A stretch of 34,627 nucleotides of DNA from Alphaproteobacteria bacterium (GTDB taxonomy: Bacteria > Pseudomonadota > Alphaproteobacteria > TMED109). Positions 22,521 to 25,580 of the stretch are shown piece after piece. The stretch covers positions 1 through 34,627 of the forward strand of contig DQLC01000094.1 of assembly GCA_015660425.1 (NCBI GenBank), written 5' to 3'. The notes under the pieces were generated by a model that did no database searches, was not told where the DNA came from, and saw nothing but the letters and a program-made list of their open reading frames with translations. How positions within the stretch are numbered: position 1 is the first letter of the stretch; every line of letters starts with the position of its first letter. The position numbers were made by a program, and so were the translations under genes.

Positions 22521-23002
22521 TTCGTTTCGTTTTTTATATCAGCTTCAAATTTTTCAAAAACAGTTTTATAAACACTTTTTCTAAATTCTGTAACATTGTT
22601 TTCTATATATTTTGTATCTGCCCATTTCCATGCACTAAATTCTGGATTTTTATATGAATTAATATTTACTTCAGAGTCATCACCAAAAAAATAAAATAAA
22701 AACCATTTTTGCATTTGTCCTACAAATTTACCATTCCATTTATTTTTTGCTATATCAATTGGTAATTTATATTTTATCCATTCATTAATTGAGGCAATAT
22801 GTTTAATACTTTTAATACCTGTTTCTTCATAAGTTTCCCTAATAGCAGCTTTTAATGCCGATTCATTTGTATCAATGCCTCCTTGTGGCATTTGCCAAGC
22901 GCACAACTTTTTAATATCAGCTCTTTTCCCAATCCAAATATTAGCATTTTTATTGAATATAACTATACCAACATTTGGTCTATACTGTTCATGGTCAGGC
23001 AT
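22517..23002 (-). CDS. rppH: RNA pyrophosphohydrolase, Nudix family
   Basis: The 161-residue Nudix hydrolase removes pyrophosphate from mRNA 5' ends, which triggers decay (older names nudH, ialA). The N-terminus YRPNVGIVIFN is typical. The Nudix box is complete: G, five residues, E, seven residues, then RETYEETGI (in GGIDTNES...RETYEETGIKS). QMPQGGI and WKWADTKYIEN fit RppH. The ATG lies inside the end of ctpA (8-base overlap), so it is probably the last gene of that minus-strand transcript. Its stop overlaps that of atpC. Confidence 0.93.
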   Translation of the reverse strand: MPDHEQYRPNVGIVIFNKNANIWIGKRADIKKLCAWQMPQGGIDTNESALKAAIRETYEETGIKSIKHIASINEWIKYKLPIDIAKNKWNGKFVGQMQKWFLFYFFGDDSEVNINSYKNPEFSAWKWADTKYIENNVTEFRKSVYKTVFEKFEADIKNETN

Positions 23003-24293
23003 TATTTTTTTTATATAGTGATATGCCCTCTAATAAATCTATTGCTCTATTTAACTGATAGTCAATTTTCTTGTTTTCAACTTCAGTATTGCTGCTTTCC
23101 TTTTTAATTTTTTCTAAATTAGCATTACCTTCAGTAGGGTTTTCTAAATGTCCTTTTAAGTCACTTTCTTTCCTATTAGAAAATGGTTCTAATTCTTCTA
23201 TTTTTGCCTGCTTAACTATAATGTCAGGAACAATACCTTTGGCTTGTATGGATTTGCCAGAAGGAGTATAGTATCTAGCTGTTGTTAGTCTCATAGCCGA
23301 ATTCTTTTGTACAGGTATAATAGTCTGAACTGAACCTTTTCCAAATGAGGTGGTACCCATAATTATTGCGCGTTTATGATCTTGTAGAGCTCCAGCAACA
23401 ATTTCTGATGCTGATGCAGAGCCACCGTTTATAAGAATAACTACCGGAAGTCCATCAGAAATATCTCCAGATATGGCATTAAATTTTTGCTGACCTCTTT
23501 TCTTTCTTCCTCTAGTAGAAACTATTTCACCTCTATTTAAAAAAGCGTCAGATACGGCCACTGCCTGATTTAATAGTCCGCCAGGATTATTTCTTAAGTC
23601 TAGAATAACACCGGTAATATCTTTCCCTATTTCTTCTTTTAACTCTTTCATTTTTTTTAAAAGGCCAGATTCTGTTTTTTCATTAAAAGAAGTAATTCTT
23701 AAATATGCGGCATTGCCTTCTCTTCTTGCCTTAACTGATTGTACTTTTATTTTATCCCTAATAATTTTTATATCAAAGGGTTCTGCGTCACCTCTACTAA
23801 TCTTAATAGTAATTTCTGTATTAATTAAACCACGCATTTTATCTACTGCTTCTCCGAGTGTCATTCCATATACTGACACGCCATCAATCTCTATTATAAA
23901 ATCCCCAGCTTGAACGCCTGCTTCAAAAGCCGGTGTATCATCTATAGGTGACACAACTTTAACAAAACCATCTTCCATAGTGACTTCTATACCTAACCCT
24001 CCAAATTCTCCTTTAGTTTGAACTTGCATATCTTTAAATGATTCTGAATTCATAAAAGATGAGTGGGGGTCTAAAGATTGAAGCATTCCTTCAATTGCAG
24101 CTTCAATTAATTCTTTATCTGATACCTCCTCTACATATTCTCTCCTGACTCTTTCGTATACTTCTCCAAACATATTTAATTGTTGATATATACTAGTTTC
24201 CTTTTCTTCAGCATTAACAGTAAAAATAAATAATATTAAAGTAATTATTGTAAAACCGTATATGTTAATTTTTTTTAAACTTAAATATTTCAT
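22995..24293 (-). CDS. ctpA: Carboxy-terminal processing protease CtpA
   Basis: The 432-residue S41 serine protease acts in the periplasm on envelope proteins and cell-wall enzymes. A signal peptide or anchor is visible (basic MKYLSLKK, a hydrophobic run at about 12-26, then VNAEE). A PDZ domain follows (GGLGIEV through AGDFIIEIDG, about 98-170). The protease core has S294 in GGSASASE, K319 in FGKG and Q323, the Ser-Lys-Gln set with the spacing of B. subtilis CtpB. The start is ATG, six bases after the stop of the broken M23 gene. That order (M23 peptidase, ctpA, rppH) is standard in Alphaproteobacteria, where the pair shapes peptidoglycan turnover. Confidence 0.94.
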   Translation of the reverse strand: MKYLSLKKINIYGFTIITLILFIFTVNAEEKETSIYQQLNMFGEVYERVRREYVEEVSDKELIEAAIEGMLQSLDPHSSFMNSESFKDMQVQTKGEFGGLGIEVTMEDGFVKVVSPIDDTPAFEAGVQAGDFIIEIDGVSVYGMTLGEAVDKMRGLINTEITIKISRGDAEPFDIKIIRDKIKVQSVKARREGNAAYLRITSFNEKTESGLLKKMKELKEEIGKDITGVILDLRNNPGGLLNQAVAVSDAFLNRGEIVSTRGRKKRGQQKFNAISGDISDGLPVVILINGGSASASEIVAGALQDHKRAIIMGTTSFGKGSVQTIIPVQKNSAMRLTTARYYTPSGKSIQAKGIVPDIIVKQAKIEELEPFSNRKESDLKGHLENPTEGNANLEKIKKESSNTEVENKKIDYQLNRAIDLLEGISLYKKNNA

Positions 24294-24299
24294 TATTAT

Positions 24300-24645
24300 T
24301 TACCTTTGTTGTTCTTGTATTAACCATTTTATAGGGTTAACTGGTTTTTCATTTAATTCTACTTCTACGTAAAGCTCAGAAGAATTAGATTTGTTTGTTT
24401 TAATTATATCTAATTTTTTGTTCACAGTTAATCTTAGTTCCTATTTTATAATATATTTCATCTTGTCTTGAAAGTATAACATGAAAAGAAAACCTAGGAT
24501 CAATAATTAATAAATTTTTATATCCTTTAAAATAATTTGCAAATACTATTTTGCCTGATACGGGGGATATAATTTTTTTTCTTTTTGAATTTGTAAATTA
24601 CGTCTTCAGGCTTTTTTGTTTTTAAATGGTAATATTAATTTTTTT
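24300..24645 (-). pseudogene. Broken EnvC-like M23 (LytM) peptidase gene, 3' end only
   Basis: This 352-base space has no intact reading frame, but the minus strand clearly encodes the end of a murein hydrolase activator of the EnvC/M23 type, split over frames. One piece reads ISPVSGKIVFANYFKGYKN and continues to YKIGTK before a stop. After a one-base shift near 24425-24430 another reads NSSELYVEVELNEKPVNP and ends KWLIQEQQR. Upstream, LILPFKNK and KPEDVIYKF lie in other frames, with a shift at an A8 tract near 24570. The N-terminal coiled coil, signal peptide and start codon are absent because rsfS ends directly before it. Conserved alphaproteobacterial order puts rlmH and the full gene here. 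Sequencing error could explain the shifts but not the missing two thirds. Confidence 0.75.
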
Positions 24646-24996
24646 CTATAAATTCTCTTCCATAGATTTATCATTAGGAGCAAGCCACATTTTATCTAAA
24701 TTATAAAAATCTCTAACTTCTGGCCTAAATAAGTGAACTATTACATCACCTGCGTCCACTAACACCCAATCACCATTTCTCTGACCTTCAATAGAAAATA
24801 TATGATAACCTAATGTTTTAATCTTGCTTGTAACTTGACTAGCTAGAGCACTTACATGCCTAGTAGAAGTTCCATTAGCTATAATCATATAATCTGCTAT
24901 AGATGACTTGCCTTTTAATGGGATAGATATTATATCTTCTGCTTTACCATCACTCAATATTTTTTCTATACTATTGTTTAGTTTTTTATTGTTCAT
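24646..24996 (-). CDS. rsfS: Ribosome silencing factor RsfS
   Basis: The 116-residue RsfS/Iojap protein binds ribosomal protein L14 and blocks subunit joining when nutrients are short. ADYMIIANGTSTRHVSALA and GDWVLVDAGDVIVHLF are the family signatures, and length is typical. It follows nadD at five bases, the usual order. rlmH, which normally comes next, is missing, and the EnvC remnant begins at once. Confidence 0.93.
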   Translation of the reverse strand: MNNKKLNNSIEKILSDGKAEDIISIPLKGKSSIADYMIIANGTSTRHVSALASQVTSKIKTLGYHIFSIEGQRNGDWVLVDAGDVIVHLFRPEVRDFYNLDKMWLAPNDKSMEENL

Positions 24997-25001
24997 ACTT
25001 A

Positions 25002-25580
25002 TTAGGTTTCCAACCGATCATTATTATTTAATCTTAACATAGTTGACGATACTGAGTTTTTAGTAATATGTAGAAATTGCCAAACTGGAAGAGGTTTATT
25101 AAAGATAGATTTCGAACCTTTAGTTTTATGTAATTTTAAAAAATAGTGCTTTCCTGCAATAGAATTAATTACGCTATAAGAATAAACACCTCTATTAAAA
25201 ACTGCAACAGGCATTATATTGAAAATTTTTTTCCAATTAAACCAATTATTAATCTCTATAAGGTTATCTTCCCCCATTAACCAAATAAAGTTGCTACCAC
25301 TATATCTTTTGCTTATTAGTTCTAGAGTTTTAGATGTCAAATTTGTTTTAAATTTTGTTTCAAGATCCTCAACTCTAATATTATGGCCTTTCGCAATATT
25401 TCTAGCATTGTTTAGTCTAATTTTTAAGGGTGTACTCATAGACTTTTCTTTTAAAGGATTTTGTGGACTTACTAACCACCAAATTTCATCTAGTTTTAAT
25501 TTTTTTAGTGCTGTATTGGATATATATAAGTGCCCATTGTGAGCAGGATTAAAAGAGCCTCCTAATAAGCCAATTCTCAT
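25002..25580 (-). CDS. nadD: Nicotinate-nucleotide adenylyltransferase
   Basis: The 192-residue nucleotidyltransferase adenylates nicotinate mononucleotide in NAD synthesis. The N-terminus MRIGLLGGSFNPAHNGH holds the HxGH-type ATP motif (HNGH), WWLVSPQNPLK is conserved, and the end has the family's SSTMLR. The frame stays open to a TTG at 25637, two bases after the proA stop, which would add 19 basic residues. I chose the ATG at 25580 because it starts at the conserved strand and has a purine-rich AAGAAG upstream. The longer form cannot be excluded. Confidence 0.9.
   Translation of the reverse strand: MRIGLLGGSFNPAHNGHLYISNTALKKLKLDEIWWLVSPQNPLKEKSMSTPLKIRLNNARNIAKGHNIRVEDLETKFKTNLTSKTLELISKRYSGSNFIWLMGEDNLIEINNWFNWKKIFNIMPVAVFNRGVYSYSVINSIAGKHYFLKLHKTKGSKSIFNKPLPVWQFLHITKNSVSSTMLRLNNNDRLET

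Follow-up and report, generated by a model that had tools for sequence, protein, structure and literature searches.

The gap between rsfS and ctpA in this alphaproteobacterial genome raises two questions: what gene, if any, does it still hold, and does the absence of rlmH from the same place belong to the same event? The window (the whole stretch of DNA that was analysed, 34,627 nucleotides) is contig 88 of a 119-contig genome of 1.12 Mb, about 62% complete (G000). Its minus strand carries, in order, obgE, proB, proA, nadD, rsfS, a gap of 352 bases, ctpA and a Nudix hydrolase gene, with names assigned by eye and by place and, for ctpA, additionally by Pfam. A sequence-only reading had seen here the frameshifted end of an EnvC-type gene and a possible snapshot of streamlining in which septal hydrolase activation and rlmH had gone together. 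We compared the locus across 28 sampled genomes of eight genera, which form one family and make up the whole sampled order. The window's own genus (g1) includes G000, its nearest sister species in the sample (G002), G004 and G005, while G007 and G009 stand for the genera g2 and g4.

The remnant between rsfS and ctpA

Throughout the gap (24294-24645, minus strand) LytM sequence is found in three successive frames (Table 1). A LytM profile drawn from the end portions of seven full-length relatives gave one frame 37.9 bits and another 11.8; after the gap had been dinucleotide-shuffled 200 times, the two highest scores were 12.6 and 9.0 bits. The stronger block is far above chance; the C-terminal block scores near the best shuffle and owes its credibility solely to its position and to an alignment with G002 that continues unbroken, and Pfam returned no match when that block was searched alone. 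An envC profile run against the whole of G000 matched 24294-24645 with E = 1.2e-8. The Pfam M23 match of the middle block (25.5 bits) lies below the cut-off of 28.7, two full-length relatives scoring 51.0 and 49.5 bits and the G002 copy 46.5 bits.

Profiles and translations together confirm that the end of an EnvC-type LytM gene stands between rsfS and ctpA in several frames. What remains are about the last 115 codons, and the start, the signal peptide and the coiled coil are missing from the window copy, in agreement with the earlier view that the N-terminal part is gone. The neighbouring ctpA was rightly read as intact, its open frame starting at 24293, six bases past the stop of the remnant. 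Two marks of a pseudogene are present: disabling lesions by comparison (three indels and a missing 5' part in the window, a TAG and a frame change in G002) and relaxed constraint, described below. We therefore hold with high confidence that 24294-24645 is a young pseudogene of an envC-type gene, that is, of a degenerate LytM factor adjoining ctpA.

Table 1. Features of the rsfS-ctpA region in the window
Feature	Position	Strand	Remarks
rsfS (ribosomal silencing factor; name presumed)	24646..24996	-	Open frame; 91% identical in G002; stop 24646-24648
First remnant block (KKLILPFKNKKA)	24609..24644	-	Joined directly behind rsfS, apparently via a deletion
AAAAATTAATATT, single copy at the putative deletion junction	24631..24643	-	Two copies in G002
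Lesion 1	near 24616	-	2-base deletion relative to G002
Middle frame (IISPVSGKIVFANYFKGYKNLLIIDPRFSFHVILSRQDEIYYKIG...), degenerate LytM core	24403..24597	-	37.9 bits; M23 E 1.5e-5
Lesion 2, A8 tract	24573..24580	-	2-base net deletion relative to G002
C-terminal frame (...SSELYVEVELNEKPVNPIKWLIQEQQR)	24303..24440	-	11.8 bits; aligned to G002; stop TAA 24300-24302
Lesion 3, A6 tract	24414..24419	-	1-base insertion relative to G002
ctpA (S41 carboxyl-terminal protease)	22995..24293	-	Open frame with S41 and PDZ domains

The sister copy and the age of the decay

In G002, 504 bases separate rsfS from ctpA and the stump is longer. Its LytM domain stands in one frame with a premature TAG inside and further stops in the last codons; a signal-like stretch, recognised by eye, lies upstream in another frame, about 40 codons before the LytM part, and the coiled coil is absent there too. 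Inside the LytM part the two copies have no lesion in common. Aligned with G002, the window shows two 2-base deletions and one 1-base insertion, all in or beside A runs. Both shifts that the sequence-only reading had placed, in an A8 tract near 24570 and near 24427, are borne out by this alignment, but a third lesion near 24616 had gone unnamed. Among 45 residues invariant in the seven full-length relatives, 19 are kept in the window and 27 in G002 (G002 retains nine that the window has lost and, owing to the stop, lacks one that the window retains); the alignment behind these counts is approximate in the first block and near one of the frame breaks. On these counts, decay seems to be further along in the window lineage than in G002.

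The 13-base sequence AAAAATTAATATT occurs twice where the G002 stump begins, 150 bases apart (oriented positions 1850 and 2000 of L002), flanking the part that is missing in the window. A deletion between these two direct repeats would have taken the N-terminal stretch in the window lineage, a route that is likely but not proven because, when the 212-base segment was shuffled 500 times, a repeat of the same length arose in 10 cases.

Between G000 and G002, the remnant has a dN/dS of 0.336 (dN 0.155, dS 0.462; Nei-Gojobori codon counts from our own script, with the codons at breaks dropped), and of 0.33 with bootstrapping (95% range 0.18-0.61; none of 1000 replicates at or above 1). Constraint is relaxed in comparison with four neighbouring genes in the same pair of genomes (rsfS 0.077, nadD 0.123, proA 0.065 and ctpA 0.100, with dS 0.63-0.78). 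The LytM part of full-length pairs gave 0.10 (G014/G020), 0.10 (G017/G020) and 0.25 (G013/G022); this last value falls inside the bootstrap range of the stump, and since the excess is indistinguishable against such a yardstick, the ratio sets no date for the decay. Differences at first, second and third codon positions number 21/17/30 in the stump versus 7/4/20 in the LytM part of G014/G020, a pair with similar dS in the flanks. After correction of its frame, the window copy has no in-frame stop; in simulations with an AT-rich base mix (300 trials), sequences stayed stop-free in 2% of cases with 20% of the sites redrawn and in 32% with 5%. As dN/dS is below 1 in all bootstraps, selection acted on the LytM domain over much of the period after G000 and G002 split, and, as the corrected frame is also free of stops, the domain has probably been released from it only briefly. 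The suggestion that the decay is recent is thus upheld.

A different history would start from an ancestor of G000 and G002 that already had a working EnvC without the coiled coil, made of a signal peptide and a LytM domain, which was then broken separately in both. It would account for the lack of the coiled coil in both copies, for the selection seen in every bootstrap and for the signal-like stretch of G002, and a deletion between the 13-base repeats would be easiest if these were already close together. However, the two lineages may have parted with the coiled coil independently after the split, the genomes searched yielded no intact short form, and a form without the coiled coil and its inhibitory arm would be unregulated: in the excerpts of PMC10336132 available to us, coiled-coil LytM regulators connect FtsEX with amidases, and a helical arm adjoining LytM inhibits EnvC. 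We regard such an ancestor as possible but unlikely. That the lineage once ran a secreted LytM-only EnvC, free of FtsEX and of the inhibitory arm and maintained by selection, with the two stumps as its independent remains, is in our judgement improbable; if true, an EnvC of this kind would be a step between a regulated and an absent one. Under the preferred reading, that of a young pseudogene, the stump would persist only because little time has passed.

Alternatively, the stump could have been retained because it serves ctpA as a spacer with a regulatory role, a promoter or a ribosome-binding region. The final codons ahead of ctpA include a purine-rich AAAGG, G002 shares without change a 22-base block whose end lies 25 bases short of the ctpA start, and one promoter-like site lies on the right strand (24431-24403, 10/12). 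Yet promoter-like sites are at the level of shuffles (5 against a mean of 4.2, sd 2.1; scans elsewhere gave 5 against 3.5, sd 2.0, in L003 and 5 against 2.2, sd 1.5, in L004), and the predominance of differences at third codon positions marks the stump as former coding sequence. Furthermore, relatives do with 102-180 bases of different sequence: the distance from the last codon of rsfS to the chosen ctpA start is 107 bases in G004, 180 in G005, about 163 in G007 and 102 in G009, compared with 355 in the window. A search of 23900-25100 against Rfam gave one match, of 17.7 bits versus a gathering score of 49. We consider a regulatory role highly unlikely.

It is scarcely credible that the gene is intact and that homopolymer errors of sequencing or assembly broke its frame, even though all three frame changes lie in or beside A runs and correcting them yields a sequence free of in-frame stops. 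Elsewhere in the window, 120 A/T runs of six or more occur in the 30 open frames that we took to be genes (32,874 nt summed), which run unbroken as far as the frames themselves show. Moreover, indels leave unexplained why the start, the signal peptide and the coiled coil are missing and why nine invariant residues that G002 keeps are lost, and G002, a separate genome, is broken in the same gene at a different point.

envC and rlmH across the order

The site from rsfS to ctpA was readable in G000, G002, G004, G005, G007 and G009 and in the genera g5 and g8. In these last two genera, the seven loci read (G013, G014, G016, G017, G019, G020 and G022) carry, directly behind rsfS and with no rlmH in between, an open frame 356-395 codons long from stop to stop; in G013 the profile match spans one TAA, which by comparison is at the N-terminal edge. 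G041 has envC beside ctpA by profile, and the copy of G024 is cut by a contig end. Altogether, envC stands directly upstream of ctpA as the window remnant, in eight full-length relatives and as one contig-cut copy. The gaps of G004, G005, G007 and G009 hold no LytM signal (profile scores of at most 1.3 bits; top scores of shuffles, run for G000, G005 and G007, were 12.6, 6.4 and 5.8), and no envC profile match was found in the seven g7 genomes, which are of 2.5-3.8 Mb. A short intact M23 gene at this place in relatives, which the sequence-only reading had named as a finding that would speak against decay, was looked for and is absent from the genomes with a readable site; the longest remnant, that of G002, is broken as well.

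Excluded from this count were G001, G003, G006, G010 and G011, without a match to rsfS or ctpA, and G008, which is without rsfS and proA and has its ctpA cut at a contig start. In the former five the region is probably unassembled; proA is also absent from G003, G006, G010 and G011, and G001 has only a piece of it. G042 and G043 stood outside the rsfS search and are counted only in the family-wide searches. One of the five genomes that miss rsfS and ctpA is 97% complete, and in this order assembly or binning of the segment seems to be difficult; no relatives of RsfS were found on viral contigs. In G012, a g7 genome, a gpmI-like gene comes right after rsfS and ctpA is on a different contig (L190, G012:C1:190300-193500; names by eye), an arrangement that differs from that of the small-genome genera.

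A tree built from pieces of ProA, NadD, RsfS and CtpA for 30 genomes, not all equally covered, joins g4, g2 and the pairs G004/G005 and G000/G002, in this branching order, in one clade (printed nodes 98-100, with no value printed for the G000/G002 node); g3, g5 and g8 lie beside this clade (77-100 inside) and g7 outside. Because g4, g2 and G004/G005 branch outside the G000-G002 pair, their losses would be separate, and the clade would have lost envC at least four times if the ancestor of G000 and G002 had a selected LytM domain, transfer aside. The picture of one streamlining snapshot is contradicted, the gene having been broken or removed separately in several relatives.

RlmH is the 23S m3Psi1915 methyltransferase. 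Its gene had been said to normally follow rsfS, and among the 14 class relatives from outside the family in which both were located, it stands immediately behind rsfS in 11 (in the other three the two are on different contigs). Its reported absence here also stands, no rlmH being found in the window or in the contigs of the roughly 62% complete G000. For G000 taken alone, an rlmH or another envC might still sit in the part missing from the assembly. What does not stand is the tie to the decay of envC. RlmH was found in none of the 28 genomes of the order, ten of them of high quality, including genomes of 2.5-3.8 Mb and species with full-length EnvC, whereas 74 of 94 class genomes outside the order have it (the class search covered 96 genomes, two belonging to the order). 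This distribution indicates that the loss of rlmH is older than the decay of envC and independent of it, and would date back at least to the ancestor of the order. The 23S loop examined, which we take to be the target loop of RlmH, was recovered from five genomes, in each case free of mismatches; no match within two mismatches was seen in the other 23, G000 included, where the rRNA was probably not assembled. A concerted loss of rlmH and envC, together or in one recent process, would suit the lack of both genes here and the size of the sampled genomes of the genus (1.1-1.7 Mb), but we give it virtually no weight and set it aside, as it is contradicted by the absence of rlmH from all 28 genomes, among them large ones and those with full-length envC behind rsfS.

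Septal hydrolase control and known systems

The proposal that septal hydrolase activation was lost goes too far. G000 keeps an intact NlpD/DipM-like protein of 298 aa (L055 1486-2379, G000:C110) with LysM (two stretches), M23 and a lipoprotein-like start, near yajC-like and pcm-like genes (by eye), and Amidase_3 is present in 22 of the 28 family genomes, including G002, G004, G005 and G007. Amidase_3 was not found in G000, G009, G013, G017, G019 and G041, the last four of which have full-length EnvC; these missing matches are most likely due to incomplete assemblies, and because of them the argument for a back-up by an NlpD/DipM-type protein and an amidase is a loose one. In the excerpts of PMC10336132, DipM of Caulobacter stimulates AmiC, and the EnvC-like LdpF recruits AmiC and links to FtsEX with no activation of AmiC; in those of PMC8416486, an amiC deletion in Agrobacterium resembles an envC deletion. 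The loss of envC may have been tolerated since the NlpD/DipM-type LysM-LytM protein could still control an AmiC-type amidase. Septal hydrolase control is probably not gone, and by analogy the consequence would most likely be a looser placement of the amidase rather than lost septal cleavage. The FtsX model TIGR00439 had matches in 22 of the 28 genomes, none above a cut-off that was attained by just 1 of 14 control genomes; L183, the sole FtsX locus inspected, appears by eye to be a permease of another kind. PF18075 matched in none of the 28, and its control misses Caulobacter as well.

Within one small marine order, a cell-separation factor can be followed through its loss, from the full-length gene through copies freshly broken in two ways to erased ones. 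The order appears to have dropped EnvC several times and RlmH altogether, and two losses that looked like one event are now separated. Among titles and abstract openings, we found no published account of this envC decay.

The full-length relatives resemble the EnvC/LdpF type (LdpF of Caulobacter, EnvC of Agrobacterium) in their hydrophobic N-terminus, long middle (about 250 residues precede LytM) and C-terminal LytM domain without zinc-binding histidines. By eye, NNGINLSV and LYMEFRF stand in them at the place of HYGIDIA and HLHWG in an M23 protein of G004, motifs that we take to be of the kind that supplies the zinc ligands of active M23 enzymes. Their profile finds the E. coli EnvC structures 4bh5 (E 1.7e-4) and 8c0j (E 2.3e-4); its best structure match is 8i6o, a 409-residue "membrane-bound metallopeptidase" chain (E 6.1e-8), and TagE structures score equal to those of EnvC. 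Against the NCBIfam EnvC model PRK11637 (cut-off 270), two full-length relatives score only 16.2 and 26.3 bits and G002 13.5, and the window block is not among the matches listed. The window differs from this type in keeping only the last ~115 codons, in three frames, with neither signal peptide nor coiled coil. Binding of FtsX and recruitment or activation of an amidase belong to the EnvC/LdpF type and would apply to the gene here by analogy.

The NlpD/DipM type, which joins LysM to LytM, is represented in G000 by the 298 aa protein, but as a separate gene on another contig, and it is the likely back-up and not where the remnant came from. Pseudogenes driven by deletion are ordinary in AT-rich bacteria, and the window resembles them in having indels at A runs and, probably, a deletion mediated by short direct repeats. 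The EnvC remnant is an ordinary kind of gene loss, yet an unusually clear example, in that full-length, two differently broken and erased copies form a series within one order.
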